Shown in pieces: positions 22,370-46,871 of a DNA stretch of 64,000 nt. The position numbers and the translations under genes were made by a program. The stretch's first letter is position 1, and the number at the start of each line of letters is the position of its first letter. This DNA comes from a virus: the IMG/VR virus record IMGVR_UViG_3300031754_000001, positions 62,001-126,000 of that record; one strand, written 5' to 3'. The notes beneath the pieces are model-generated. The model was not told the DNA's origin. It did no database searches and saw only the letters and a list, made by a program, of their open reading frames with translations.

Positions 22370-24631
22370 CTATCGGCTGAGCCGGTGCAGGGTGCGGTCT
22401 TTCGACGGCTGCTTGAGCGGCAGCCAGGACGGCCCGCGGATGTGCCCCCGGACCGGGGTGATGCGGATCGTCTGCCCGTTGGCCAGGCACACCGCGCAGA
22501 TGTCGTGGTCATCGTCATCGGCGTAACCGGTACGGCCGGCCGGGACTGCCTCGTGCCGCCGGCGCCTGCCCTCGCCGTCCTCGTCGGTGTAGGGATCGAT
22601 ATGCCGGTGAAAATCTGCCACCCACCACTTGCAGGTCCGGCTGACGTCGCGGTGGCCGGGCAGCTCGTCGCTGATATAGGTGATCCGGCGCAGGGTGATA
22701 ACGTGCACCTGGCTGCCGTGCTTGAGCGACTTCTGCGCCCGGCGCGCGGTGTGCGGGCTGGCCGCCGGAGTGCTCCGCGTCGCGGTCAGCTCCATCACCA
22801 GGTATGCCCACAGGATGTGGATAAGCGCGATCATGGCCTCGCCCTGCGCCTCGAACCCGGAGTTAACGGTGAACCGGCGGTCGAACGGGATCACCGAGAT
22901 GTGCTGCGGGACGAGCTGCCCGGTCAGGCTGGCCGCCCGGTCCGCGCGCCGGGGATCATCCCAGCGGCCGAACGCCACATCGTCGCTGATCAGGGTCCAC
23001 AGGATGACCCGGGCAGCATCGACGGAGGTCATCCGGCCATCCGGACCCGGATAGGCGACGGTGACTTTCTCCCAGGACAGCGCGCGGAACGGCATGAAGT
23101 ACCCGGACGATTCCAGCATCACCCAGGGCCGGTCCAGCCAGGCGAACCCGGCGTGACCAGGCAGCTCGCCGGCGTCCAGGTAAGCGATGCCGAGCCCGAT
23201 CCGGTCGAACACCTCCCGCATCCTGGCCACCATCGGGGCGGTCACCTGGTAGGTCCGCGCCTCGCGCAGGCTGTGCGCGATGATCCCGGCGAACTGGGCG
23301 CCCTCATCCGGCCCGGCCGGGACCTGGCTCAGGTCGGCCGGCCAGAACATCAGGGCCGACCGGTCCGGGTCATCCCACTGAGCCTGGGAATCGCGGATCA
23401 GGTACCCGAGGTAGTCGGCCAGGTCACCGCTGCCTGAGGCGTAGTGCCGGGCCAGCCAGGCGTGCATGTCGAGTACCTGGTCCGCGGTCCAGCTCGTCCG
23501 CACCGGGATGGCCTGCGCCTGCGCGGCGTCGCGGATCAGATGGCGGGGGTCGGAATTGGCGATCAGCTGCCGGGCACGCTCGTGGCTGGCTTTCAGCGCT
23601 TCCTCACGGCGGTGCGCGGCAGTCAGCGCCCTGGCGATTTCCGGGGCCAGCCGGTTCAGTTCTTCCCTGCCAACGCCGGCGGCCAGCCGCGCGGTCAGGC
23701 CGGGGGAAGCCGCCTCCAGCACCCGGGCAAACCGGGCCGATTCCTCGCTGACGCCCTCCACCGTGACCTCGGAATAGCCCTTGTGCTCCTGCACCGTGAC
23801 CTCATCAGGCAGCGGGACACCGGGAACGAGGCCGGCCCGGCCCCTGCGGAGAGCCGCCACGATATCGTCCTCATCCGCCCTGGCGGTGGCTCCGGCATGC
23901 CGGGCGGCCAGCTCCGGCGCGCCTGTCCCGGCTACGGCAGTCCGGGATTCGCCGAGCGTGCGCGGCAGGCCCAGGTCGATGTTCGCCCCGCGCAGGAGCG
24001 CATCGCTCTCCGCAGGGGTCTGCGGCCCGGTAGGCAGGCGGGTCCCGCCCCCGCGCTCGCCGAAAGCCTGGTTCGCGCCACTGGCGTACCTCGCGGGCAG
24101 CGGCTGGTCAGGGCGCCGGAACGCCGCGGGGATCTCCGGCAGGCGCCCTTTCCCGGTTTCCTCCGGGTCGCCGTGGACTATATGCCCGCTGGGTCCCGGC
24201 TTGATGATCCGCGGATGCAGCTCGTCTTGCTCGCGGTACCCGACCGTGATTTCCCCGGCATCGAAATGCTCCTCGAAAGACAGCTGGTCCAGCTCGCCGG
24301 ACGTGATGACCTGGCTCTCGCCAGACAGCCGGAGGTTCTGCCAGACTCTCGCCCCGGCCGCCACCGGGGTACCGTCCTCCATCACCATGGGCCTGTTCAA
24401 GGTACCCAGCAGTGCCCCGGCGCCATCCGGCCTGCCCTCCTCCGTCGTGATGATCACGTCGATCTCCGCGTCAAGGTCCTTCCCGCGCAGCGACGGATGC
24501 AGGTTCTCCTCAGCCAGGGCGTTGCCCTTCAGCTCAGAGAGCGAGCCGAACCCGCCCTGGGCCAGGGCCGCCTGGCTGCCCGGGGATTTTTTCCCTTGCC
24601 GGCGATCCCGGCGCTTCCGGCCCTTGCTCAC
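22370..24631 (-). CDS. 753-residue protein of unknown function
   Basis: Starts at GTG 24631 after AGGAGGAAGCT. The very basic N-terminus (KGRKRRDRRQGKK) is followed by a long polar, probably disordered region to ~240, then a helical body (~250-560) and a C-terminal domain with ICAVC and a terminal basic segment. The end (VRGHIRGPSWLPLKQPSKD) recalls a C-terminal element, RGHWR...IKGP, common in uncharacterised actinobacterial mobile-element proteins. No enzymatic motif is identifiable. It may bind nucleic acid. Confidence 0.75.
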   Translation of the reverse strand: MSKGRKRRDRRQGKKSPGSQAALAQGGFGSLSELKGNALAEENLHPSLRGKDLDAEIDVIITTEEGRPDGAGALLGTLNRPMVMEDGTPVAAGARVWQNLRLSGESQVITSGELDQLSFEEHFDAGEITVGYREQDELHPRIIKPGPSGHIVHGDPEETGKGRLPEIPAAFRRPDQPLPARYASGANQAFGERGGGTRLPTGPQTPAESDALLRGANIDLGLPRTLGESRTAVAGTGAPELAARHAGATARADEDDIVAALRRGRAGLVPGVPLPDEVTVQEHKGYSEVTVEGVSEESARFARVLEAASPGLTARLAAGVGREELNRLAPEIARALTAAHRREEALKASHERARQLIANSDPRHLIRDAAQAQAIPVRTSWTADQVLDMHAWLARHYASGSGDLADYLGYLIRDSQAQWDDPDRSALMFWPADLSQVPAGPDEGAQFAGIIAHSLREARTYQVTAPMVARMREVFDRIGLGIAYLDAGELPGHAGFAWLDRPWVMLESSGYFMPFRALSWEKVTVAYPGPDGRMTSVDAARVILWTLISDDVAFGRWDDPRRADRAASLTGQLVPQHISVIPFDRRFTVNSGFEAQGEAMIALIHILWAYLVMELTATRSTPAASPHTARRAQKSLKHGSQVHVITLRRITYISDELPGHRDVSRTCKWWVADFHRHIDPYTDEDGEGRRRRHEAVPAGRTGYADDDDHDICAVCLANGQTIRITPVRGHIRGPSWLPLKQPSKDRTLHRLSR

Positions 24632-24736
24632 AGCTTCCTCCTCTCCTGGGCATCATCTGTGCTCACCGGCAAGCCGCGCTTCTCCCGGACCAGTACCCCC
24701 GGGCCGGCGCGGAATCGTACGCATCGCGGATCATGG

Positions 24737-25078
24737 CTAAGACCGCCCCCGGGATTCCGGGTACAGCGACTCTGGCGGCGCGAACGGGTCCCGCTCATGC
24801 GGGTGGCCGTCATGCGCCGTCTCGCCGGCCGCGTGCTCGTGCTTATGCGCGTGCAGGAGACGGCGCCCGTCCGGTCCCGTGTGATAGTGATACTGATCGT
24901 GCGAGACCAGCGGGTTGCCGTCCCGCTCCCGGGCGATCTCGTCACACCGGTCGGCCTGGGCATCCAGGATCTCGGCGGCCTGCTGCCGGCCGCTGTTGTG
25001 CACCCAGCCGCGAGCGCGACCGGCCCCGGCACGGAACACGCTGGCCAGGTCCGCCCAGTCTCGCGCGTCCGTCGGCAT
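24737..25078 (-). CDS. His-rich unknown protein
   Basis: 113 residues after GGAGGGCTGAGGCC. Helical N-terminus, then a His-rich tract (HDQYHYHTGPDGRRLLHAHK, further His to ~92) that could bind metal. No confident gene is seen in the 105 nt between its stop and the next start. Confidence 0.68.
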   Translation of the reverse strand: MPTDARDWADLASVFRAGAGRARGWVHNSGRQQAAEILDAQADRCDEIARERDGNPLVSHDQYHYHTGPDGRRLLHAHKHEHAAGETAHDGHPHERDPFAPPESLYPESRGRS

Positions 25079-25640: not shown

Positions 25641-26960
25641 TCAGCGGGCCAGCCGGGCGGCGTGGGCCATCACGTCCAGCGCCCTGGCGTCCAGCTCGGC
25701 CGCGCGGTCGGCACTGTCCAGGGTCTGGCTGACGGAGGTGACGGCGTTGGCCACCCCGCCGGAGGTGTACGAGCCGCCGCGCAGGAAATGCGCCAGGATG
25801 TCAGCCGCCTCGCCCTGGGTGAACCCGGCTGCCTTGGACACGTCCCTGATAACCTCCTCGGGCTTGCCCACCGGGGCGCCGGCCAGCGCCTCGATCTCGG
25901 TCACCTTGCCGAAGAACCACTCGGGGGTGAGGAACTGCTGCACGGCGTCGGCGGCCTGGCTGGTGATCAGCTCCAGTTCCTTCTCCATGGTCTCCGCGGA
26001 CCAGGCGATGATGCCCTCATCCTTGAGCGAGCCGAGGTGCACCGCGCGGTCAGCCGAGGCGGTGAGGGTAAGCCGGTTGCCGCAGATCTGCACGACGATC
26101 TCCGGCGCGATCGAGCGGGCGCCCTCGCCGACGTCGGAGTTGGTGACCTTCAGGCCGGCGAACACGACCGGCTCCTGGCCGGCCGGGTAGTCCTTGCCCT
26201 CGCGCTTAGCCGCGGCCAGCGCCCGCTGCAGGGCCTCGCCTCCGGCACCGAAGTGGCCGGCTTGCAGCTTCATGCCGGGGCGGTCGCCGTGGCCGGCCCG
26301 TCTGACGCCGCCGGGGCCGTCGAACGGGGACCGGTAGCCGTCTAGCAGTTTCGGGGCGTAGGCGGCGATCTCGGGCACTGAGAACCGGACGTGCATCCGG
26401 CGGTCGGTCAGGTCGGACACGTCGGGAACGGCATTGACCCCGGCCTTGCGGAGCCCGTCCATGACCGCGAGCAGGACGTCCAGGTTATCGATGATCTTGT
26501 ACCGGGGGGATAGCACGGCGCGCAGCACGCCGTCCGTTACCTCATCGCCCTTGAGCAGCCGGAGCAGGATCGCCCCGTCGAACGGCGGGTAGTTCCGGTC
26601 CTCGCCGTCGATGGTCTCGCTGCCGCCGTGCAGGAAGCCGCTGACGTTGGCGTCCCACAGGTCGGTGCGGGCCGGGTCCAGGCGGCGGAGTTTCTTGAGG
26701 TAGCCCCCGTCGATGCCGAGCAGCCCGGCCAGGCCCTCGTCACCGACCGCGGTAGGCCGGTAGACGCCCGCGGCCGAGGTGACGCCTTCCTCGCCGACCC
26801 ACTGGGTGGACTCGCCCGCGGCGACGGTGATGTTCCCGCCGTAGGCATCGATCATGCCGTGGCGGACCACGACGTCCAGGCGCCGGGCGCGTTGCTCCTG
26901 CAGGATGGCGAGGATGTCGGGCAGTCCGGCGTTCCTGGCCTCGGTGACGATCGCTGGCAT
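25641..26960 (-). CDS. DUF932 family phage/plasmid-like protein
   Basis: 439 residues from ATG 26960 after GGAGGGAACCAC. The central LSPRYKIIDNLDVLLAVMDG is the hallmark of DUF932, and length and the conserved C-terminal helical region agree. The family is common on phages and plasmids; its biochemical role is unsettled. It has its own upstream promoter and downstream stem-loop, so it is probably an independently and strongly expressed gene. Confidence 0.85.
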   Translation of the reverse strand: MPAIVTEARNAGLPDILAILQEQRARRLDVVVRHGMIDAYGGNITVAAGESTQWVGEEGVTSAAGVYRPTAVGDEGLAGLLGIDGGYLKKLRRLDPARTDLWDANVSGFLHGGSETIDGEDRNYPPFDGAILLRLLKGDEVTDGVLRAVLSPRYKIIDNLDVLLAVMDGLRKAGVNAVPDVSDLTDRRMHVRFSVPEIAAYAPKLLDGYRSPFDGPGGVRRAGHGDRPGMKLQAGHFGAGGEALQRALAAAKREGKDYPAGQEPVVFAGLKVTNSDVGEGARSIAPEIVVQICGNRLTLTASADRAVHLGSLKDEGIIAWSAETMEKELELITSQAADAVQQFLTPEWFFGKVTEIEALAGAPVGKPEEVIRDVSKAAGFTQGEAADILAHFLRGGSYTSGGVANAVTSVSQTLDSADRAAELDARALDVMAHAARLAR

Positions 26961-27010
26961 GTGGTTCCCTCCGGTAGCGGACTGATCTCGTGTCTGTGGC
27001 TGTCCTATTC

Positions 27011-27040
27011 AGTATACATCTACAATAGCGTCCCTGTCAA
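27011..27040 (-). promoter_or_regulatory. sigma70-like promoter of the DUF932 operon
   Basis: On the minus strand TTGACA (27040-27035) is 18 bp from TATACT (27016-27011). This matches consensus closely and lies in an unusually AT-rich stretch 51 bp upstream of the DUF932 start. Confidence 0.8.
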
Positions 27041-27074
27041 AACGAGCTGTGCAGCTAGTTTCTGGCAAGGCAGT

Positions 27075-27129
27075 AAAGAACCCGGCCCAGGTCAGCGGGG
27101 ATGCAACAGGAAAACTAACCTGGGCCGGG
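27075..27129 (-). terminator. terminator of the 28-32 kb operon
   Basis: A perfect 12-bp stem (27118-27129 with 27081-27092) around a 25-nt loop, followed in the minus direction by TTCTTTACT. It lies just after the last gene of the regulatory operon and before the DUF932 promoter. Confidence 0.7.
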
Positions 27130-27134
27130 CTGGT

Positions 27135-28143
27135 TCAGCGCCGGTAACGCAGCGTCGTGCATGACTTGTAGTGCTCGTGCAAGTCCGGGACCTGGCGGTG
27201 GCAGTACCCGCACGTGGTTTCCGGCGGGGTGTACTGCGGGCTCGGCGGGTACTTCGCCAGCATCAGCGGCAGCGTCTCGCAGACCTCCGCGCCCGGGTAC
27301 ATCTGCTCCAGCCGGTCGCCGATCACCGCCATCCAGGCCTGCGCTGCGTCCTGCGCTGCCCGGATCTCCTCTGCGGAGGGTTCCGGCGGCTCCGGCGGGG
27401 GCGGAACATACCGGGGCGCGCCGCCCAGCGACGGGGGCACCGGGGGAGCGCCGGGGAAGCTGATGACCCTCCCGGTGAAACGGGGCGCCGGGCGCCAGGG
27501 CGAGAGCGGGGCGGACAGGGGCCGCCCGAACATCGCGTCATTGCCGTCCGTACGGGGCAGGTCGGGCTCGATCACGAGCGGCAGGTGCAGCGCCACGATC
27601 TCAGCCTTCTGCGCGCGGAAGCCGAGCGGGCCGGTCAGCACCTGGCCGGAGCCCTCGATCACGCCGACGACGGGCAGCGCGCCGTCCCGGCCCAGTTCGT
27701 GCGGCTGGACCTGCCAGTACGCCCAGAATCCGCAAGCGCACGAAATTTCCGGGATCTCGTCTCCGGTGTGCACCTCGTGCCCGTACACCGGCTTGCACAC
27801 GGCCAGGTTCTCGCCTGGCTGCCAGTCACCCCTGGCTCCGCACAGCAGGCGGGGATGCCAGTCCTGCTCTGCGCGGGCCGGGCTGCGATCCAGCCGCGGG
27901 GCGTCCAGCGTCCACCACCGGTAGCCGAAAACGGTCCCGGCGATGAAGTCGGCCCCGTCGAACCCGGACATGCCCCGGACGCCCGGCTTAGGCCCCGGCG
28001 GCTTCAGCGCAAACTGCGGGGGCGGCCATGGCCGGTGCCCGGACACTGTAACGGCACCTCCCCGGGAATACCCGGCCCCGCTCACCACGGTCGTGCCTGA
28101 CGGCTTCTGCGGCGGCGCCCCGGTAAAGATCCAGAGCCGCATG
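27135..28143 (-). CDS. unknown protein with Cys-rich ends
   Basis: 335 residues if started at ATG 28143, where codon bias becomes typical again; ATG 27974 is an alternative. Contains GYRWWTLDAPRL and a Cys/His region (CGARGDW, ISCACGFWAYW) that could bind zinc, a Pro-rich middle, and CGYCHRQVPDLHEH near the end, a probable zinc finger. The frame stays open to 28418, but codon bias between 28178 and 28315 favours another frame. Function unknown. Confidence 0.65.
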
Positions 28144-28177
28144 CTGTCAGCGCGGAGTACCGGGGGAAGCTGATGAC

Positions 28178-28315
28178 CTAGGCAGGGGCCGGGGCTGCAA
28201 GTGCAGGGTCCGGCATGACCTGCGGGCCGGGCGCTTCCACCTGGGTGTCCAGCTCGTCGGGCAGTCTCTCGCAGACGACCTTGCGGATCTGCTCTTTCTC
28301 GCCGATGTATCCCAT
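28178..28315 (-). CDS. 45-residue protein overlapping a longer open frame
   Basis: ATG 28315 follows GGAGGAGACGTC. The product (MGYIGEKEQIRKVVCERLPD...) has natural composition and G/C-biased third positions, unlike the longer frame running through it. The end is Pro/Ala-rich. Function unknown. Confidence 0.6.
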   Translation of the reverse strand: MGYIGEKEQIRKVVCERLPDELDTQVEAPGPQVMPDPALAAPAPA

Positions 28316-28418
28316 GACGTCTCCTCCATAGCAGGACGGCCCGGCGGTACCAGGCCGCGATGACGGTAATCCAGGTGATGACGAGCAGGACCCAGAGACC
28401 GGTTAGGACCGGGGCCAT
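28316..28418 (-). other. coding segment for one membrane helix without its own stop
   Basis: From ATG 28418 the frame encodes a hydrophobic helix (LWVLLVITWITVIAAWY) and a basic end, with coding-like third positions. It has no stop before entering the 28178-28315 gene in another frame; it stays open to 27135. Either a membrane-anchored long form exists or a small membrane gene has lost its end. Confidence 0.4.
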
Positions 28419-28424
28419 ATCAGC

Positions 28425-29312
28425 CTACGACGCCAGGAGTTCCGTGCCGGTCCCGTCGCAGCCGCCCGCAAGCCCGGGAACGGTCTCGCCCGCGAGCGCG
28501 AACCCGGCCGCGGACAGCTGATCGCGGACCTCGGCCAGCGACGCCGGGCCGAAATTCCGGATGCGCCGGAGCGATTCCGCGTCGTGGGAGATCAGCTCCC
28601 CGATCGTGCGGATGCTGCCGGCGCCAGGCCGGCTGTCCGCGGAGAGGTCGCCCCGGAGCAGGGCGTTGTGCGTGCGGACGGTCAGGTCCAGCTCCCCGAT
28701 CTCGTCGTCCCCGGTCAGGTCGCAGATCGGGGCGATCTCCTCTTCGTCCGCCTCGGCCGGGCGGGCGGCGACGGCCTCGGCGATCGCGCCGCCGAGCACT
28801 TCGTCATCCGCGCCGGAGACCATCAGCTCGTACGCGTCCCTCAGCGGCCGGGAGTAGTACACGCGGCCGGACACCGGGTTCTTGTACCGGATGCCGTGCT
28901 CCCGGGCGAAAATCCGCAGGTCCCTGTTGTAATCCAGGCGGCTGCGGCGGGCGTTCTCGTTCTCGTGCGGGGGCAGCGGGGGACCGCCGGGGAGCAGGTC
29001 ACGCGGCGTGCACGGGTCACCCGGGCGGCTCAGCGCCGCGCAGTAGGCGCGCACGGTGCGGGCCTTCGGCTTGCGCCCGCCTGGCTGGGCTCCCGTCTCG
29101 TTCTTGGCGATGGCGTCCCGGCTGACGGTCAGCGGGGAGCCGTCGTCGTCCGTCAGGTTCAGCGCGGTGATCGCGTCCGCGAGATCCTGGCGGGACCAGC
29201 CGCGGCTTTCCCGCCACCAGGTCAGCCGGTCAGGATCGATGGCGATGCCTGATACCGGCCGCTTCGGGGGCGCAGGCCGCTGCTCCTGCCTTTCCTGCGT
29301 CATGGCTGACAT
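28425..29312 (-). CDS. HTH / Lsr2-C-like / RNA polymerase alpha-CTD fusion regulator
   Basis: 295 residues from ATG 29312 (CGGAG upstream). Three domains in order: an XRE-like helix-turn-helix (~27-95, RLTWWRESRGWSRQDLADAI); a segment like the Lsr2 C-terminal DNA-binding domain (~127-166, RDLRIFAREHG...RPLRDAYE); and a C-terminal domain like the RNA polymerase alpha C-terminal domain (~205-275). The last keeps residues equivalent to E. coli Arg265 (R213), Asn268 (N216), Asn294 (N253), Gly296 (G255) and Ser299 (S258), with a ~10-residue insertion. The alpha-CTD binds UP elements and activators. A fusion to specific DNA-binding domains could recruit or redirect host RNA polymerase; that role is inferred. 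Confidence 0.75.
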   Translation of the reverse strand: MSAMTQERQEQRPAPPKRPVSGIAIDPDRLTWWRESRGWSRQDLADAITALNLTDDDGSPLTVSRDAIAKNETGAQPGGRKPKARTVRAYCAALSRPGDPCTPRDLLPGGPPLPPHENENARRSRLDYNRDLRIFAREHGIRYKNPVSGRVYYSRPLRDAYELMVSGADDEVLGGAIAEAVAARPAEADEEEIAPICDLTGDDEIGELDLTVRTHNALLRGDLSADSRPGAGSIRTIGELISHDAESLRRIRNFGPASLAEVRDQLSAAGFALAGETVPGLAGGCDGTGTELLAS

Positions 29313-29644
29313 GGTATCGCTCCGTGGTTTGCGGGATAATACCCGATGATACGTCCTGATACAGGTAACACCCGGGGCGCAGGCAGTTGTTCCGGGACTC
29401 CTGGCTGGTCACCAGCGTCTGATGGCAATACATGAGGCTGCCCGTCACACGTGTGCACGCGATCAGCGAACGTGATCGTCACCGGACCGCCCGGCCAGGT
29501 CTCATCAGGCGGAAGCAGCCTGGTATCGATCACCTGGTAATACGGCCCGCACTCGTCCTCACCTACGAGAACGCGCCCGCAGCGGACGCACGTGCGATCC
29601 GGGGCAGGGCGGTACCTGCCGTCCCCGGTGAACAGCCTGCTCAT
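29300..29644 (-). CDS. unknown protein with zinc-ribbon start
   Basis: 114 residues from ATG 29644 (overlap with previous stop). CVRCGRVLVGEDECG near the N-terminus suggests a zinc ribbon. From about 29450 the codon bias favours another frame (encoding CHQTLVTSQESRNNC and CLRPGC-type sequence), so the true C-terminus may be altered by an indel. It overlaps the start of the fusion regulator by 13 nt. Confidence 0.55.
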   Translation of the reverse strand: MSRLFTGDGRYRPAPDRTCVRCGRVLVGEDECGPYYQVIDTRLLPPDETWPGGPVTITFADRVHTCDGQPHVLPSDAGDQPGVPEQLPAPRVLPVSGRIIGYYPANHGAIPCQP

Positions 29645-30102
29645 ATCGCGTTCCCCGTCGCCGGGTCGTAGTCCGGCTGCAGCTTGTGCTCGGCGGTCAG
29701 CAGGTGATCTTCGCCGGCCAGGTGATGCGCGTACGCCCGCTTGGTCTTGGCCGGGGGATAGTATCCGCCTTTGACCAGCGCAGTAAGGTTGTACCCCATC
29801 GCCTTCGCCCACTCAATCCGGGCCTTGTTGAACTCCTGTACCTCCCGGTTCTTGCTAGCCCGGCTAGCGGCAGGCGTATCAGGCGTGCCCATCTCACCAG
29901 GCTCGTGGCTGGCGTCCAGGAACGGGGCCATTGCCTCGCGCAGGGCCTTGGCCCAGTCCCGCGTCAGGTCTAGCTCGCGGATGTCCAGCTTGTCCGGGTC
30001 CGGGCCGATCGCGAGATAAAGGGTTTCCTCGGCCGGGACGTGCCGGTCAGGCTCCGTGGCCCGGGTCATGTCGCAGCTGCAGATGATCTGGATGAACTTC
30101 AC
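29641..30102 (-). CDS. Lsr2-like nucleoid-associated protein candidate
   Basis: 153 residues from GTG 30102 after GGAGGATCCC. The N-terminal part (EETLYLAIGPD...IRELDLTRDWAKALREAMAPFLDAS) follows the Lsr2 dimerisation domain pattern ETVxFxLDG...IDLxxxNAxxLRxxL. Residues ~90-128 (NKARIEWAKAMGYNLTALV...AYAHHL) follow the helix-loop-helix of the Lsr2 DNA-binding domain, but the minor-groove RGR loop is replaced by KGGYY. Lsr2 silences AT-rich foreign DNA in actinobacteria; a phage version could counter or mimic it. The family call is by eye. Confidence 0.55.
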   Translation of the reverse strand: MKFIQIICSCDMTRATEPDRHVPAEETLYLAIGPDPDKLDIRELDLTRDWAKALREAMAPFLDASHEPGEMGTPDTPAASRASKNREVQEFNKARIEWAKAMGYNLTALVKGGYYPPAKTKRAYAHHLAGEDHLLTAEHKLQPDYDPATGNAI

Positions 30103-30266
30103 GGGATCCTCCACCCGCCGGGCACGGGCTCGGCCCAGTCCCGGTCGCTGGCCTCGCGCAGGAACACGCGGACGAAATGCTCGGTCTCGCCCGTCGCGGC
30201 GGCAACCTTCTCCGCGGTGACGACCTCGCCGACGTGCTCGTGCAGGTACCTGGTGATGCTGATCAC
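30099..30266 (-). CDS. 55-residue winged-helix-like protein
   Basis: GTG 30266 overlaps the previous stop (GTGA), and its stop overlaps the next GTG. The sequence (ITRYLHEHVGEVVTAEKVAA, then helix, then PVPGGWRI) has the helix-turn-helix-strand order of a minimal winged helix. It sits directly before the Lsr2-like gene, in an operon of DNA-binding proteins. Confidence 0.65.
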   Translation of the reverse strand: MISITRYLHEHVGEVVTAEKVAAATGETEHFVRVFLREASDRDWAEPVPGGWRIP

Positions 30267-30553: not shown

Positions 30554-30780
30554 GACACGACCGTCCTCTCCTCGCAGAACCGGGACCGGCCGCTGAACTC
30601 GCGGATCTTGCGCATGTCCTCTTCCGAGGCGTACCACTCCGTGGCACCCGGATTAGTCAGCCAGCGCAAAACCGCGGATCCGTCGCTGAATACACAGGCC
30701 TCGGCCACGATCCCGGTAGGCCTGGTGACCTCTGACGGGCCGGGCACCTCACGTACCAGGCTGAGGATGCGGGCAGTCAT
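30550..30780 (-). CDS. unknown 76-residue protein
   Basis: Beta-rich with an invariant-looking core (GIVAEACVFSDGSAVLRWLT) and a helical end, like small phage proteins that bind nucleic acid or host factors. 4-nt overlaps on both sides. No family recognised. Confidence 0.7.
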   Translation of the reverse strand: MTARILSLVREVPGPSEVTRPTGIVAEACVFSDGSAVLRWLTNPGATEWYASEEDMRKIREFSGRSRFCEERTVVS

Positions 30781-31247
30781 GGCGCGATCCAGCGGATGCG
30801 CGGATGCCTGGCGTCGCCGTGATCCGCCGCTGCCTGGTTCTGGTGCGACAGGTCGTGGCTCACGTGCAGGAACTGCAGCCTGGCCGTAATGGACTGCCGG
30901 GCATCCCCGGAGTAGGGAGCCGTGTCCAGCAGGTAGAGCAGGCTGTTCCGGCAGAACCGGCAGGACCGCAGGCAGTTCCCGGTCCGGTAATCGGCCAGGG
31001 ACTGCTCAGCCACGACCGCGACCAGGATGTCCAGAACTTCCGCGGGCGGAGTGCGGACTTCCGGCCGGGATGCCGGAGAGCCGAGGATGGCCACCTCTGC
31101 CAGGATCTCCTGGATGTCCGGCTCATCATCGGGCCGCAGCCGGAAATGGATGGCGACCTGTTTCGCGGTCAGGGGCTCGGCCATGTTCAGCCGGATGAAG
31201 TCCCTGATCCTGCGGCGGGTGGAGTAGTCCAGGCCATGCCTGCTCAC
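30777..31247 (-). CDS. helical protein with CxxxCxxC cluster
   Basis: 156 residues from GTG 31247 (GTGA overlap). An N-terminal helical region with an HTH-like element (LTAKQVAIHFRLRPDD) is followed by CLRSCRFC, a probable metal site, then helices. It may bind DNA. The longer upstream frame is compositionally non-coding. Confidence 0.68.
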   Translation of the reverse strand: MSRHGLDYSTRRRIRDFIRLNMAEPLTAKQVAIHFRLRPDDEPDIQEILAEVAILGSPASRPEVRTPPAEVLDILVAVVAEQSLADYRTGNCLRSCRFCRNSLLYLLDTAPYSGDARQSITARLQFLHVSHDLSHQNQAAADHGDARHPRIRWIAP

Positions 31248-31810
31248 AGCAGCGTCCCGTCGCCCAGCACCGGCTCGTCGGCGAACAGCTCGCCGGCCAT
31301 CAAGACCGTGATGTAGTCGATGACGTCCAGCCGGGTGATCCGCGAGCCTTCCGGCCGGATCTCCCAGATGCTCATGTCGCGCTTGTACTGGCGGTGCCGG
31401 CCGCGCTCCATGAAGATGCCCTGCGCGCCCGTGTAGGTGGTGCGGACGGAGCCGCAGGTGCGCCCGGAGCCGTCCTCGTCGCGGGTGCAGGTCTCGGTGA
31501 TCAGGAACGCGCCCTCCTGCTCCGGGGCCAGCACCGCCCGCCATCCCCGCGGCCGGCCGCGGCCCGGGATGAGAACCGGCCAGGTATGCCCGTAAGCCAG
31601 GCAGAGCAGCTGCTGCAGGGTCAGCTTGTCCAGGTAGGCGACGACGGCCGCGCCGAGCCGGGCGGTCAGCATCTTGCGGGTGGGCAGCCTGGTCTTGCGG
31701 CCCTTGCGGCGGGGCGTGCTCCCGGCCGCGGTGACCCGGGGCTCGGTGACCTTATCCGTTTCCGCGATGGCCCTGGCGATCTTATCCCTGGCGGACGTGG
31801 CTGATGCCAT
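31244..31810 (-). CDS. first gene of the regulatory operon, unknown
   Basis: 188 residues from ATG 31810 after AGGAGAAAACTG. A basic N-terminus (GSTPRRKGRKTRLPTRK) leads to a helical segment, then a compact beta-rich domain with CTRDEDGSGRTCG, a possible metal site. A basic tail ahead of a folded domain suggests nucleic-acid binding. It heads at least seven coupled genes. Confidence 0.72.
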   Translation of the reverse strand: MASATSARDKIARAIAETDKVTEPRVTAAGSTPRRKGRKTRLPTRKMLTARLGAAVVAYLDKLTLQQLLCLAYGHTWPVLIPGRGRPRGWRAVLAPEQEGAFLITETCTRDEDGSGRTCGSVRTTYTGAQGIFMERGRHRQYKRDMSIWEIRPEGSRITRLDVIDYITVLMAGELFADEPVLGDGTLL

Positions 31811-31842
31811 CAGTTTTCTCCTGGTCTCGGTCTGGGATCTTT

Positions 31843-31870
31843 GGTATACGCTGTCCTATGCAGTCTACAA
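31843..31870 (-). promoter_or_regulatory. candidate promoter of the regulatory operon
   Basis: On the minus strand TTGTAG (31870-31865) and TATACC (31848-31843) are 16 bp apart, 33 bp upstream of the first start. The adjoining plus-strand TGTCCTATGCAGT recurs with one change beside the DUF932 promoter (27001-27013), so both may share an operator. Confidence 0.5.
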
Positions 31871-31913
31871 GACGCATGAACCAAGCTATCTATTCCTGCG
31901 GGTCACAGCAAGG

Positions 31914-31973
31914 CTGGCCTTCCGGCACTGCGAGCACGGATTGCGGTCCGGCGCATTCGGCCGGAAAGGCCAG
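31914..31973 (-). terminator. long stem-loop between minus-strand transcription units
   Basis: A 13-bp stem with one bulged base (31914-31926 with 31960-31973) enclosing ~33 nt, just after the 31984 stop and before the next promoter. No long T-tract, so termination is plausible but unproven. Confidence 0.45.
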
Positions 31974-31983
31974 GTGCTCACGG

Positions 31984-32532
31984 TTACATCGCCACGACCG
32001 GCTTGACAGCCCCGCGGAAAGCCGGGTCGTTCTCCGCGGCCTCGGCCAGCAGCTCGCGCATCGGCCCGGACACCGCCGCGCTAGACCCGCCGCCGGCCCC
32101 GCGGTGCCGGGCCACGGTAAGCCGCCGGATCACCGCGTCGTGAGTGGGCAGCGACCAGACCGTGTACTGCGGGTACTCGGTGATCACCTCCGCCGGGATA
32201 CGGCGCCGGGATTCCTCCAGCGTCATGGGCGGGCACTGCTCGCGGCCGGGCCGGGACGGCAGGACCCCGCAGTAGACCGTCTTCTCCGGCAGCTCATCCC
32301 GCGAGGTCCGGACCGGCTTGCGGACATGGGCAGCCCCGCCGGGCGCGTGCCACACCGTGCTGATGCTGGCCTGGACGAAGATGTACGTGCCGTCCGCCTT
32401 GCGGTAGAGGCTGGCGTCCATCCACCGGGCACGCTGCCGGTCTTTCGGGTCCAGCCTGGTGCTGACCGGCCCGGCGATGCGCTCTCCCTCGAACTCGTAC
32501 ACCACGGATTCGTCTTCGATGCGCACCTTCAT
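31984..32532 (-). CDS. unknown 182-residue protein
   Basis: Starts at ATG 32532 with GGAGAACGACGAC upstream. The N-terminus is beta-rich (KVRIEDESVVYEFEGERIAG) and the middle mixed; the C-terminus has a helical region (MRELLAEAAENDPAFRG). It is transcribed divergently from the replication block. No family recognised. Confidence 0.72.
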   Translation of the reverse strand: MKVRIEDESVVYEFEGERIAGPVSTRLDPKDRQRARWMDASLYRKADGTYIFVQASISTVWHAPGGAAHVRKPVRTSRDELPEKTVYCGVLPSRPGREQCPPMTLEESRRRIPAEVITEYPQYTVWSLPTHDAVIRRLTVARHRGAGGGSSAAVSGPMRELLAEAAENDPAFRGAVKPVVAM

Positions 32533-41596: not shown

Positions 41597-42087
41597 ACAG
41601 CACGGAAATCAGCGGCACGTCATGCCCGCAGTGCGATGACGGCAACTGGAACGACCTTGGCTGCATGACGTGCGGCCTGGAATTCTTCCCGCCGTCCGAG
41701 GCGTACCAGGCTGCGGTACCGGTAAGCCTGCGCATAAAACGACTTCGCGCAAGCTGGGCTCCGGCTCCGCGCCTGACCCCGGCTGAAGACTGTTTCTGGG
41801 GGGCTTGTCTCGCCCGGGGTTACCCGTGGACTGACGATGTACTGCCGCAGGCTCGCATCGGTGCCTACCGGGCGGATTTCCTGCTAGCCGGAGCCAGGAT
41901 CGTTATCGAGATCGATGGCTTCAGCAATCACGCGAAAACCGCTGACATCACGCGCGACCGGCAGCGGCAGCGCTGGCTGCAAGGTCAGGGCTATCAGGTC
42001 ATCCGGTTCAGTAACACCGAAATCCAGCAGGCCCCGGAACGATGCGCGGCTGAAACTGACGCGCTGATTCGCGGGATGCTGTCATGA
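41593..42087 (+). CDS. DUF559/Vsr-like endonuclease with N-terminal zinc ribbon
   Basis: 164 residues. A CPQC...CMTC ribbon (residues ~11-28) precedes a PD-(D/E)XK core: YRADFLL (Asp), IVIEIDG (Glu, Asp) and ITRDRQRQRWLQGQGYQVIRFSN, typical of the DUF559 and very-short-patch-repair folds. Probably a single-strand nick or branched-DNA nuclease in phage recombination; substrate unproven. Confidence 0.75.
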   Translation: MNSTEISGTSCPQCDDGNWNDLGCMTCGLEFFPPSEAYQAAVPVSLRIKRLRASWAPAPRLTPAEDCFWGACLARGYPWTDDVLPQARIGAYRADFLLAGARIVIEIDGFSNHAKTADITRDRQRQRWLQGQGYQVIRFSNTEIQQAPERCAAETDALIRGMLS

Positions 42088-45000
42088 ACGCCCAGGTCCG
42101 GCAGGACGCGCCGGTCTACGCGTCGGCCTGCGCGGATTACTACCTGGCCGGGTGGACGTGCGTGATCCCGGTGCCGCCGGAAGCCAAGTTCCCTCCGCCC
42201 GGCGGGTTCACCGGGGCTGGCGGCCGGGACACCACCCCAGAGGACATCGCCGGCTGGGCGGAGCAGCTGCCCGGTTACTCGATCGCGCTACGGATGCCGG
42301 ACGGCGTGATCGGCATCGACGTCGATGAGTACGCCAAGGGCGAGACCGTCAAGCATGGCGCCGCGACCGTAACCGGGGCCGAGGGGGAATGGGGCGCGCT
42401 GCCGCCGACATGCTCATCGACTGCCCGCGGCCAGGATCAGCCGAGCCGCATCCTGTTCTACCGGGTGCCGGCCGGCCGGTACGCCAGCCAGCTCGGCCCG
42501 GATGTCGAGATCATCCAGCGGCATCACCGCTACGCCGTGGTCGCGCCGTCGCCGCACTCCGCTACCGGGACGCCGTATCAGTGGTACGGCCCGGACGGTT
42601 CCCCCCTGGGCGGGAAAGTCCCGGGACCGGGAGAACTGGCCGCTCTGCCGGAAGCGTGGATCCAGGGCCTGGCCGAGGGCGCCGCGGCAGCCAGCCCGAT
42701 GGCAGCCAGTATCGGCGAGGCCGGGCAGCTGCTGGCCTGGCTGGAGGCTGAGACCGGGCAGGTGTGCACCGACATGGCGCACGCGACGGCGGCGATCCTG
42801 GCCGAGACCACGGCCGCGCACCCCGGCTCCCGGCATGACCTGATGACCAGGGGCATCTACGAGCTGGTCCAGCTGACCGCCGAGGGCCACGGCGGTTACG
42901 GCACGGTCATCGCCCAGCTGCGCGGGCTATGGGGCGAGCTGACCGCCGGGGAAGACCGGGACGCCGAGTTCGGCGACATGATCACCACCGCGGCGCGCAA
43001 GGCCGTCACTGCCCACGGCCCGGTCCCGCAGGCAGCCGATCCGTGCCGGGTGTTCGGCCGCGGGCTGCCCCGGTTCGCCGCGCCCGCACCGGACGTGCCG
43101 CCGGGTGCGGGCCTAGATGATGACGAGCTGCCGCCGCCCGAGGCGCCGAGGTTCTGGTCGCCGTGGGGAGAAGACGGGATCGGCGTGCTGCCATTCGACC
43201 CGCCCGCCGGGCTGGACGGGATGCTGGCCCGCGACGTGCTGGGCCGTACCTGGCCGGTACTGCGGTACGCCCCGGACGCGGGCGCGTGGATCAGGCGCGG
43301 CCCGGACAAGTGGGACGTGATCAAGGGCGACTTGTCCAAATGGGCTGTCGACCTGGTGAGCGTGCTCATGCCGCCCGGTGACCCGGACGCCGCCCAGGGC
43401 AGCCCGGAACGGCTTCAGGCTGACCGGCGCAAGCGGTTCATGTCGAACTCCCCGGCCAACGCGATCGCCGGGAAGATGAACGCGCAGGTCGCCGCCGGGC
43501 AGCACCCGTCCGCAGTGGAACTGGCCGCGCTGGACACTGACCGGGAGATCCTGTGGGCCGGGGGCATGCCGTTCGACCTGCGGAACTCCGACGAGGCTCC
43601 GGCGATCTCGCGGTGGACCGACCCGGGCACCCCGCACCTGCACAGCGCGGGCGTGGTCCCGGAGCTGCGCCCCGTGCCGCGATGGGACGCGTTCCTGGCC
43701 GCGGTCTGGCCGGACGAGGACGTGCGGGCCTGGGCACTGCGCATCCTGTCGATCTCGTTCACCGGCTACCCGGACAAGGCGCTGCCCATCCTGCTCGGCG
43801 ACACCGACCGCGGTAAGACCTCGCTGATCATGCTGCTGATGTCCGTGCTGGGCAGTTACGCCCACGTGGCCGATGCCCGGCTGCTCGCCCCGGCTGACAA
43901 GTCACACGCCTCGATCGTGTACGCGCTGCGGGGCCGGCGGCTGTCGTTCATCGATGAGGCACCGCGCACCGGTCAGCTGGCTACTGAACGGCTGAAGCAG
44001 ATCACGGGCGGCGCGGACCTGACCGGCAACCGGATGGGCGAGAACCCCATCACGTTCCCCACCACTCACACGCTGATCCTGACCGCCAACCCCGAGCACG
44101 AGCCGGTGCTGACCGACGCGGCCATTCGCCGCCGGGTCCGGCTGATCCCGTGCAACGGCGATCCCGCCGCGGTCATCGCGGCCAGGGCGGCGATCGGCGC
44201 GGAGCACGGTGCCGCGTGGCGGGCCGAGGCACCCGGCGTGCTGGCCCGGATGATGGCCGAGACAGCCCGCTGGCTGGCTGACCCGCACAGCTCCGGCAAC
44301 GAGTCCGCGCCGGAAGCAGCGGCCCTGGCGGCGAGTGAGATCATGGCGAGCCAGGACCTCACGCTGCAGTGGCTGCGCGAGGAATGCGAGGATTTCGAGC
44401 GCGGCACCAGGAGCCGTGATCTCTACCTGGCGTTCACGGAGAGTTGCCGGCGGATGGCGGTGAACCCGGCTACGATGCCGTCCGAAACACGGTGGGGACG
44501 GAGGCTGACCGAACTCGGCTACCCCCCATATAAGCGGACGGACGCCAACTACCGGACCCTCCGGATCAAGCCCCCGCAGGTTTTCATGCCCGGACCAGCG
44601 GCACTGAGCGGTCAGAGCGGCGGTTCCGCCCGGCCGCATGGAGGGTCTGAGCCTGAAAATGGAGGGTTCATGGAGGGTTCGGGGTCAGGGCCTCAACCCT
44701 CCATGAACGGAAACACAGCAGGTCAAACCCTCCATGAAACCATCCATATGGAGGGTATGGAGGGTCAGTCAACGTATATAGCACACACACACGCGCGCAC
44801 ACGCGCGCACACGCAGGGGGGTAAAGACCAAACCCTCCATACCCTCCAACCTTCCATACCGCCCCCGGCGGACCCCCCCGCAGCGGAAAACCCCGGTTCG
44901 TCACCGGGCGTGACATCACCGGATGCCGCCAGGGCGGGCAAGCCCCGCAAGGCAGCCAGGCCCAGGGCCGTGAAGGTGCGGCCGGACCCGGTGCTGGAAG

Positions 45001-46871
45001 GCCCGGTGTACCAGCTGCCGGTCATCGTGGCGCGGAATCCGGACGGCGGCGAGCCGCTGGTGCTGTCGTGCTCGCCGGACGACGCGAGGGCGGCGGCAGA
45101 GGGCGCGCTGGCCGGCATGCACGTGGACTGCGAGACCTCGGGGTACCCGCCTGGTCACGCGGATTTCGCGTTGCGTACCGTCCAGCTGGGTGATGAGCAG
45201 ATGGCGGCGGTACTGGACCCGGCTGATCCGGAACAGGCGGCGGCAGTCACGGATCTGGTGGCGCGGGCGCGGGTACTGCACGCGCATTCGGCGGCGGCTG
45301 ACCTGGTGCCGCTCGCCGCAGCCGGGCTCGGCGACGCCGAGGCGATGTGGGCGAAGATGACCGATTCGGTGCTGATCGCCAAGCTGGCCGATCCGTCGCT
45401 GGCCGGGTCGGATGAGAACGAGCTGAAAAAGCTGGCCCGCGATCTGCTGGGAGGCTATGCGGTCAGCCCTCCTGCGGAGAAGGCCCGCAGCGCCCTGTTC
45501 AAGTCCGGTGGCTGGCTGACCGATACCACGGCGCTGACCCCGCCGGAGAAATCCGGATGGGGCCAGGTCAAGTCCGGTTGCGAGGTCATGGCCCGGTACG
45601 CCGGGTCCGACGTGCTGGACCTGGCCGCGGTGCTGCGCGTGCTGCCGGAGCCCGACCAGGCCGTGCTGGCGCGCGAGCGCGAGTTCCAGCGGATGTGCGC
45701 CCGGGTGAGCCATGCCGGGTTCCGGCTGGACCCGGTGCACATCCGGGCCAAGATCGCCGAGTACACCGCAGCCCGCGAAGCTGCCCGCGAGCTGGTGGCC
45801 GGCCTGTGCCCGGATATCACCAACCCGTCCTCCACCAAGGACGTCCCGGCCGCCCTGCTGGGCATGGGCATCCCGCTCGGCCGCACGAAGGACGGCAACC
45901 CGAGCGCCGCCAAGGCCGTGCTGGAGCCGCTGGCGGCCGACGAGAGCTATGAGCATCACGAATTGCTGCGCGGCATCCTGGACTACCGGCATGACGTGAC
46001 CACGCTCGGGCTGCTGCTGGAGCCCCTGGGAAGGCTGTGCGAGCACGGCGACGGCCGGATGCGCCCGGTGGTCTACACGATCAACGCCGACACCGGCCGG
46101 ACCAGCTGCGTCCGTCCCAACGGGCAGCAGTTCTCCCGGCAGGGCGGCATCCGCGCGTGCGTCATCGCGGATGAGGGCATGGCCGGAGTCTCGGCTGACT
46201 TCTCTGGCGTGGAGATCCGGGTCGGCGCCGCGCTGTCCGGTGACAGGGACCTGCTCGCCGCGGAGCTGTCCACGTACTGCCTGGCGTGCGCGTCCGATCC
46301 GTGTGCCTGCGGGCAGGGCCAGACCGGGCTGCACTGGATGGCCGCGCGGATGGCGTTCGGCGCGGGCGCCACCAAGGAAGACCGTTACAACTCCAAGCGG
46401 ATCATCTTCTCCAAGATGTTCGGCGGCGGCCCGAAGTCCGGTGCGGCCCAGGTGGGCGTGCCGGTGGAGGCGGCGTACGCGGTGCACAGCGCGTTCGAGC
46501 AGATCGCGCCTGCGTTCACCGAGTGGGATAAGCAGATGCGCGCCTACGCGGAGGCCGGCAACCGCGGTTTCCGGGCATATTCCGGCCGGGTCATCTGGCT
46601 GCCGCGCGGGCGCAGTCACGCGGCCGGCAATTACGCGATCCAGGGCTCGGCCCGGGAGCTGCTGGTGGACGGGTGCCTGCGCTGGCACCGGACCCGCTGG
46701 GGCCATCTGCCGCTGCTGCCGATCCATGACGAGATCCTGGTATGGGTTCCGGCTGAGGAGGCGCTGGAGGCCCGGGAGACGCTGAAGGCGTGCATGGCCG
46801 GCGAGCTGTACGGCGTGCCGATCGAGGCCAAGGCCGACGAGCCGTTCCTGGCCTGGCCGGATTCTTCGTGA
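42084..46871 (+). CDS. primase-helicase-DNA polymerase fusion
   Basis: 1595 residues in one frame without stops. Domain order: Prim-Pol primase/polymerase (~1-200, Asp79 and Asp81 in IGIDVD); D5-type superfamily 3 helicase (~450-800, Walker A GDTDRGKT with Lys578 and Walker B Asp624-Glu625); a low-complexity linker (~835-975) whose DNA carries iteron-like repeats; a 3'-5' exonuclease domain (~1005-1190, Asp1015 and Glu1017 in DCETSG); and family A polymerase (~1210-1595) with motif A Asp1372 (ADFSGVEIR), motif B Lys/Arg helix (YNSKRIIFSKMFGGG) and motif C His1548-Asp-Glu1550. No 5'-3' exonuclease domain is present. One chain thus combines priming, unwinding and proofreading synthesis. An internal start producing a free polymerase cannot be excluded, as GGAGGG-ATG combinations occur in the linker. 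Confidence 0.9.
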   Translation: MNAQVRQDAPVYASACADYYLAGWTCVIPVPPEAKFPPPGGFTGAGGRDTTPEDIAGWAEQLPGYSIALRMPDGVIGIDVDEYAKGETVKHGAATVTGAEGEWGALPPTCSSTARGQDQPSRILFYRVPAGRYASQLGPDVEIIQRHHRYAVVAPSPHSATGTPYQWYGPDGSPLGGKVPGPGELAALPEAWIQGLAEGAAAASPMAASIGEAGQLLAWLEAETGQVCTDMAHATAAILAETTAAHPGSRHDLMTRGIYELVQLTAEGHGGYGTVIAQLRGLWGELTAGEDRDAEFGDMITTAARKAVTAHGPVPQAADPCRVFGRGLPRFAAPAPDVPPGAGLDDDELPPPEAPRFWSPWGEDGIGVLPFDPPAGLDGMLARDVLGRTWPVLRYAPDAGAWIRRGPDKWDVIKGDLSKWAVDLVSVLMPPGDPDAAQGSPERLQADRRKRFMSNSPANAIAGKMNAQVAAGQHPSAVELAALDTDREILWAGGMPFDLRNSDEAPAISRWTDPGTPHLHSAGVVPELRPVPRWDAFLAAVWPDEDVRAWALRILSISFTGYPDKALPILLGDTDRGKTSLIMLLMSVLGSYAHVADARLLAPADKSHASIVYALRGRRLSFIDEAPRTGQLATERLKQITGGADLTGNRMGENPITFPTTHTLILTANPEHEPVLTDAAIRRRVRLIPCNGDPAAVIAARAAIGAEHGAAWRAEAPGVLARMMAETARWLADPHSSGNESAPEAAALAASEIMASQDLTLQWLREECEDFERGTRSRDLYLAFTESCRRMAVNPATMPSETRWGRRLTELGYPPYKRTDANYRTLRIKPPQVFMPGPAALSGQSGGSARPHGGSEPENGGFMEGSGSGPQPSMNGNTAGQTLHETIHMEGMEGQSTYIAHTHARTRAHTQGGKDQTLHTLQPSIPPPADPPAAENPGSSPGVTSPDAARAGKPRKAARPRAVKVRPDPVLEGPVYQLPVIVARNPDGGEPLVLSCSPDDARAAAEGALAGMHVDCETSGYPPGHADFALRTVQLGDEQMAAVLDPADPEQAAAVTDLVARARVLHAHSAAADLVPLAAAGLGDAEAMWAKMTDSVLIAKLADPSLAGSDENELKKLARDLLGGYAVSPPAEKARSALFKSGGWLTDTTALTPPEKSGWGQVKSGCEVMARYAGSDVLDLAAVLRVLPEPDQAVLAREREFQRMCARVSHAGFRLDPVHIRAKIAEYTAAREAARELVAGLCPDITNPSSTKDVPAALLGMGIPLGRTKDGNPSAAKAVLEPLAADESYEHHELLRGILDYRHDVTTLGLLLEPLGRLCEHGDGRMRPVVYTINADTGRTSCVRPNGQQFSRQGGIRACVIADEGMAGVSADFSGVEIRVGAALSGDRDLLAAELSTYCLACASDPCACGQGQTGLHWMAARMAFGAGATKEDRYNSKRIIFSKMFGGGPKSGAAQVGVPVEAAYAVHSAFEQIAPAFTEWDKQMRAYAEAGNRGFRAYSGRVIWLPRGRSHAAGNYAIQGSARELLVDGCLRWHRTRWGHLPLLPIHDEILVWVPAEEALEARETLKACMAGELYGVPIEAKADEPFLAWPDSS
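44638..44857. repeat. iteron-like 9-bp repeats in the primase-polymerase linker
   Basis: ATGGAGGGT occurs at 44638, 44659, 44670, 44748 and 44757. Its reverse complement occurs at 44696, 44727 and 44832, with variants at 44841 and 44849. Copies pair into hairpins (13-bp perfect 44667-44679 with 44695-44707; 9-bp 44727-44735 with 44748-44756). The density and mixed orientations resemble replication-origin iterons. Confidence 0.75.
44781..44814 (+). repeat. CA/CG alternating purine-pyrimidine tract
   Basis: (CA)n and (CG)n alternate for ~34 bp and encode His/Thr/Arg residues of the linker. Such tracts can form left-handed DNA under negative supercoiling. It lies beside the only AT-rich patch of the linker (ACGTATATA). 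Confidence 0.7.

Follow-up and report, generated by a model that had tools for sequence, protein, structure and literature searches.

The gene under study lies at positions 28425–29312 (minus strand) of the window, the 64,000-nucleotide stretch that was analysed as part of a 139,583-base IMG/VR virus record. It is a single open reading frame without a break, has a strong coding signal (codon score 70) and a GC3 of 0.91 versus a GC2 of 0.55, which matches real genes of this 68% GC record. The encoded protein of 295 amino acids consists of an XRE helix-turn-helix (HTH), an Lsr2-C-like segment, a variable acidic linker and an RNA polymerase α C-terminal domain (α-CTD). The record also encodes an HK97-type portal, protease and capsid, a PrimPol/PolA replication protein and an SNF2 helicase. 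No RNA polymerase β subunit, σ region 2 or second α-CTD was found in this record or in the related contig G001 described below; the lack of a detectable phage β subunit and σ region 2 suggests from the gene content that both phages use the host RNA polymerase. The Lsr2 gene and the GC content indicate that the record probably belongs to a large phage of an actinobacterium. Integrase and resolvase genes were not found in the records, which may be incomplete, so that a role of the fusion protein in lysogeny is unsupported.

The gene is part of a minus-strand operon. A 55-residue winged-helix-like protein (30099–30266, minus strand; weak HTH_15 match with E 0.1) is encoded directly before an Lsr2 homologue (29641–30102, minus strand), which lies upstream of the fusion gene, contains an N-terminal dimerization region and a C-terminal DNA-binding-like region and matches the Lsr2-like family phrog_1223 with E 8.5e-6. 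Downstream is a gene of unknown function (27135–28418, minus strand) for which no convincing Pfam or PHROG match was found. Within the window, GC content falls lowest at 26981–27080 (0.46) and 31801–31900 (0.49), on either side of the operon, and a near-consensus σ70 promoter (TTGACA-18-TATACT) is located at 27040–27011 on the minus strand. Elsewhere in the window, positions 42084–46871 encode a 1595-residue protein that combines PrimPol (N-terminal), DUF5906 and family A DNA polymerase (C-terminal) domains. This protein is ∼78% identical to its G001 counterpart over the first ∼1190 residues. The phage record additionally contains a radical SAM protein with a B12-binding domain within the structural/metabolic region (record positions 23345–24802, plus strand), a glycosyltransferase-like gene with an intein bearing a LAGLIDADG endonuclease domain (26370–28577, plus strand) and an RNA-binding Ro60/TROVE protein with a vWA domain (30580–32235, minus strand).

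The C-terminal domain (residues 204–276; 28485–28703, minus strand) is a genuine RNA polymerase α-CTD by both sequence and predicted fold, as the preliminary description had proposed. The Pfam model PF03118 (RNA_pol_A_CTD; cut-off 23.8 bits) scores 41 bits on the fusion protein (E 1.6e-10) and 40 bits on the G001 homologue. Eight rpoA models of NCBIfam match residues ∼180–275. The RpoA equivalog scores 38 bits against a cut-off of 277 and its match is confined to the C-terminal end, in agreement with the earlier statement that the protein has no α N-terminal domain. A full-length RpoA or second polymerase α subunit was ruled out, as each record contains one α-CTD and no α N-terminal domain. 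Actinobacterial α subunits ranked first in a phmmer search of PDB sequences, with modest E-values of 4e-4 to 9e-4. An AlphaFold model of the fusion protein, built from 13 aligned phage sequences, has a pLDDT of about 88–95 across residues 204–276, except for an insertion. The leading PDB matches found by Foldseek are all RpoA α-CTDs (probability 1.00) and include the Spx complex 1z3e, the UP-DNA complex 3n97 and 1lb2, with TM-scores of ∼0.8 on the α-CTD chains (TMt up to 0.84); the E-values start at a modest 3e-3, perhaps an effect of searching with the entire chain.

Alignment to E. coli α places the DNA-contact residues Arg265, Asn268, Asn294, Gly296 and Ser299 at R213, N216, N253, G255 and S258, and all five are kept in both the window protein and its G001 homologue. 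Four of them (Arg265, Asn268, Gly296 and Ser299) had already been recognized in the preliminary description, and this assignment holds, but the equivalents of Lys271 and Lys298, which assist DNA binding in E. coli, are replaced in both phages by L/I and A/T, respectively (L and A in the window protein). The Glu302 equivalent is also kept (E261 in the window protein), and the acidic positions 259/261 are Glu and Asp in both phages (E207 and D209 in the window protein). The 287 determinant is not kept. Helix 1 of the domain is followed by an 11-residue insertion (residues 221–231; 28620–28652, minus strand), which is shorter in the G001 homologue. Since the DNA face is kept and the α N-terminal domain is lost, the domain is predicted to be one that should bind DNA yet cannot join polymerase.

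The N-terminus of the protein is an XRE/CI-type HTH (residues 22–96; 29025–29249, minus strand), which gives a type to the HTH noted previously. The Pfam model HTH_31 matches the window protein below its cut-off (22.1 bits versus 27; E 1.9e-4), and HTH_3 matches the G001 homologue above it (32 bits versus 23; E 1.3e-7). A Foldseek search with the N-terminal model returned SinR, TP901-1 CI and ClgR.

The middle segment (residues 118–167; 28812–28961, minus strand) is probably a relative of the Lsr2 C domain, a relationship for which the comparisons are suggestive only. In hhalign comparisons the segment scores 24.0 against Lsr2, where 300 column shuffles peak at 21.0, and 23.8 against the Lsr2 C domain alone, where 300 shuffles peak at 19.4; thus, none of the 600 shuffles reached the Lsr2 profile score, and the register is as expected, yet the hhalign probability is 21–46%. 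The predicted structure of the segment has two helices (residues 119–138 and 155–165) with a long loop between them, and a helix-loop-helix is the expected Lsr2-C architecture. The profile score and the architecture favour the Lsr2-like segment of the preliminary description, but the Pfam Lsr2 DNA-binding model PF23359 matches neither record nor the isolated segment, and the position of the RGR motif reads R-V-Y in both phages, with only the first Arg kept. A precedent for a mobile Lsr2-C module is the Ku–Lsr2C fusion of cluster J mycobacteriophages, and Lsr2-type phage proteins have been discussed for actinobacteriophages (PMC8612146).

A full-length homologue with 57% identity and an identical domain order is present in a 210,383-base IMG/VR contig (L002, G001). 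The repetition of the domain order in this diverged contig rules out an assembly chimera or a frameshift join. The identity between the two proteins is 80% in the HTH, 70% in the Lsr2-C-like segment and 65% in the α-CTD and falls to 33–57% in the linkers. The two records have more than 20 genes in common, and the gene order around the fusion is the same in both: the winged-helix-like gene (57% identity), the Lsr2 homologue, the fusion gene and the unknown-function gene, whose G001 counterpart occupies the matching place (50%). Both Lsr2 homologues belong to phrog_1223, and their alignment matches Lsr2 with an hhalign probability of 98.3%. Scans for further fusions with the exact order relied on short exact peptide patterns, which leave absence unproven; several queries of IMG/VR returned G001 only and two scans of GTDB returned none. 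In the plasmid records that were inspected, the matched proteins were normal RpoA of full length. Relatives were sampled mainly from viral records, and cellular XRE–α-CTD fusions are possible.

A candidate operator precedes the fusion gene. Three repeats phased by 10 bp (GTATCA, GTATCA and GTATTA; 29337–29362, minus strand) end 24 bp before its ATG, and the last of them includes a −10-like TATTAT. The phased GTATYA site is unique in the 139,583-base record, where 0.017 pairs are expected. The GTATCA repeat was not found upstream of the G001 homologue.

The α-CTD alignment search revealed such domains in 28 more phage contigs. Their partners include σ70 region 4 (L017, L018 and L020), HTH_17 (L014) and NinX (a Morganella phage), and some of the proteins are small, with the α-CTD as the sole recognized domain. 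In Ruegeria phage V16 the α-CTD precedes a MazG-type pyrophosphohydrolase-like segment, recognized from the annotation in one of two records and by eye. In the Mycobacterium phages Zenteno07 (gp68) and Mithril (gp57) it follows an apparent winged helix, which was read from the sequence and has weak Pfam HTH matches; the acidic 259/261 positions are lost in both. Conservation among all the phage domains is highest at the DNA-contact residues, and the 287 determinant is not kept. Most of these proteins are annotated as hypothetical or are misnamed RNA polymerase α. BFVD labels several as "RNA polymerase, alpha subunit, C-terminal", one of them from Rhodococcus phage Finch (A0A2P1JY10). The α-CTD protein gp26 of Microbacterium phage Mazun is annotated as "DNA binding protein". 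Among the other phage α-CTD proteins found, none combines XRE and Lsr2-C-like partners, and a search of the open-access literature, outside which most subscription papers lie, returned no description of the exact fusion or of the α-CTD-fusion theme. The preliminary description, which knew of no protein with this domain order, is borne out to the extent that we found one other instance and no paper, but fusions of DNA-binding domains to α-CTDs recur in phages. The exact order HTH–(Lsr2C-like)–α-CTD is thus apparently new, as a variant of recurrent, undescribed phage α-CTD fusions.

We tentatively favour, with something short of even confidence, a reading in which the fusion protein binds DNA, regulates the Lsr2 operon and brings an α-CTD to phage promoters, where contact with σ would be possible. 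The XRE head would recognize a specific operator, for which the GTATCA repeats in front of the fusion gene are a candidate; additional DNA contacts would come from the Lsr2-C-like segment; and the flexible, variable acidic linker would hold the α-CTD and give it reach. The α-CTD could then bind in the minor groove on the upstream side of the −35 element, as the α-CTD of polymerase itself does at an UP element, and its acidic 259/261 positions could touch σ region 4. The phage would thereby provide a portable α-CTD/UP-element function at the promoters of a 68% GC genome. The adjoining Lsr2 gene suggests that this regulation is set in a silencing context, in which the fusion protein could help polymerase to displace or bypass Lsr2 as a "supportive" counter-silencer. 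Supportive and disruptive mechanisms have been distinguished in C. glutamicum, with data in favour of disruption in the case of GntR (PMC7002338). We infer the operator, the σ contact, activation and counter-silencing by the fusion protein. The regulator reading is supported by the identity of the α-CTD in sequence and fold, by the DNA-contact residues and acidic 259/261 positions kept in both phages, by the conservation of the domains while the linkers vary, by the shared neighbours, by the apparent use of the host polymerase, by the phased repeat in a promoter position and by other phages that join an α-CTD to σ region 4 or other HTHs. The loss of Lys271 and Lys298 in both phages and the absence of the repeat before the G001 homologue count against it, and the residues of the 261 determinant could have been kept for reasons of fold. 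The fullest form of the proposal we consider unlikely: a sequence-specific "portable UP-element reader" that touches σ through its α-CTD at phage promoters and relieves silencing by the adjacent Lsr2, a natural counter-silencer of the supportive type that unites a polymerase domain with a silencer-type domain, within a wider phage habit of joining α-CTDs to DNA-binding heads.

The mostly kept DNA face and the acidic 259/261 positions are compatible with the tethering of σ, UP elements or RNA polymerase suggested in the preliminary description and equally with plain DNA binding. The protein could be a multi-domain DNA-binding repressor or nucleoid protein that acts with the adjacent Lsr2 to repress or compact DNA of the phage or the host, its α-CTD being an extra minor-groove module without RNA polymerase contact; we regard this as a serious if doubtful possibility, which explains the data nearly as well as the regulator reading. 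The α-CTD may be a mere DNA-binding add-on, because phage α-CTDs have many partners and are also joined to the apparently non-regulatory NinX and MazG-like segment. The best conservation of the DNA-contact residues, the loss of the 287 determinant, the mostly repressive function of XRE proteins and the adjoining Lsr2 gene all fit such a protein. What sets the regulator reading apart from it is solely that the acidic 259/261 positions are kept here, whereas they are lost in Zenteno07 gp68 and Mithril gp57; the union of σ region 4 with an α-CTD in several phages also points to promoter work.

A decoy or dominant-negative α-CTD, which would occupy UP elements, host activators or anti-α factors and so lower host transcription during infection, seems improbable. 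The domain has no α N-terminal domain and hence is unable to join polymerase, and the α-CTD is a known phage target, as phage T4 modifies Arg265 of α by ADP-ribosylation (PMC2988021). However, the gene sits in an Lsr2 regulatory operon and encodes an XRE head with sequence specificity, few UP elements are to be expected in a GC-rich host, and the insertion and the loss of Lys271 and Lys298 make close mimicry less likely. An ordinary XRE regulator with a generic helix-hairpin-helix resemblance is very improbable: the α-CTD contains such elements and HHH_5 weakly matches several other phage α-CTDs, but HHH_5 gives no match to the fusion protein at E ≤ 1, and we rejected this reading, which the preliminary description had named as one that would refute it, on the 41-bit PF03118 match and the Foldseek result, with the specific residues kept.

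Regulators normally reach the α-CTD of polymerase by contact, whereas here the regulator itself bears an α-CTD. If it is active at promoters, the protein would show in a natural setting how far activation comes down to placing an α-CTD on DNA beside σ, and would provide a tool for GC-rich actinobacteria. Its pairing with Lsr2 makes it a concrete candidate for how actinobacterial phages deal with silencing of the phage genome. Phages repeatedly reuse the α-CTD as a module, mostly hidden by annotation, and this holds even if the domain is no more than an add-on for DNA binding.

Compared with known systems, the fusion protein shares its N-terminal HTH with XRE/CI-type regulators such as SinR, TP901-1 CI and ClgR by profile and fold, but ends in an α-CTD, and no peptidase, dimerization or ligand domain was recognized in it. 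In mid-protein it carries a helix-loop-helix similar to the Lsr2 C domain; unlike Lsr2 and the Lsr2-type phage proteins (phrog_1223 and CgpS), it has an incomplete RGR AT-hook, four extra loop residues and no Pfam match in this segment, and lacks the Lsr2 dimerization domain. A complete Lsr2 homologue is encoded by the neighbouring gene. The other phage α-CTD proteins likewise have no α N-terminal domain and often place the α-CTD behind another DNA-binding domain, but their partner domains differ from those found here. With the α-CTD of RNA polymerase, the fusion protein shares the fold, the length, the equivalents of Arg265, Asn268, Asn294, Gly296, Ser299 and Glu302 and the acidic 259/261 positions; it differs in the 11-residue insertion, in Lys271, Lys298 and the 287 determinant, which are not kept, and in having an XRE HTH attached in place of the α N-terminal domain.
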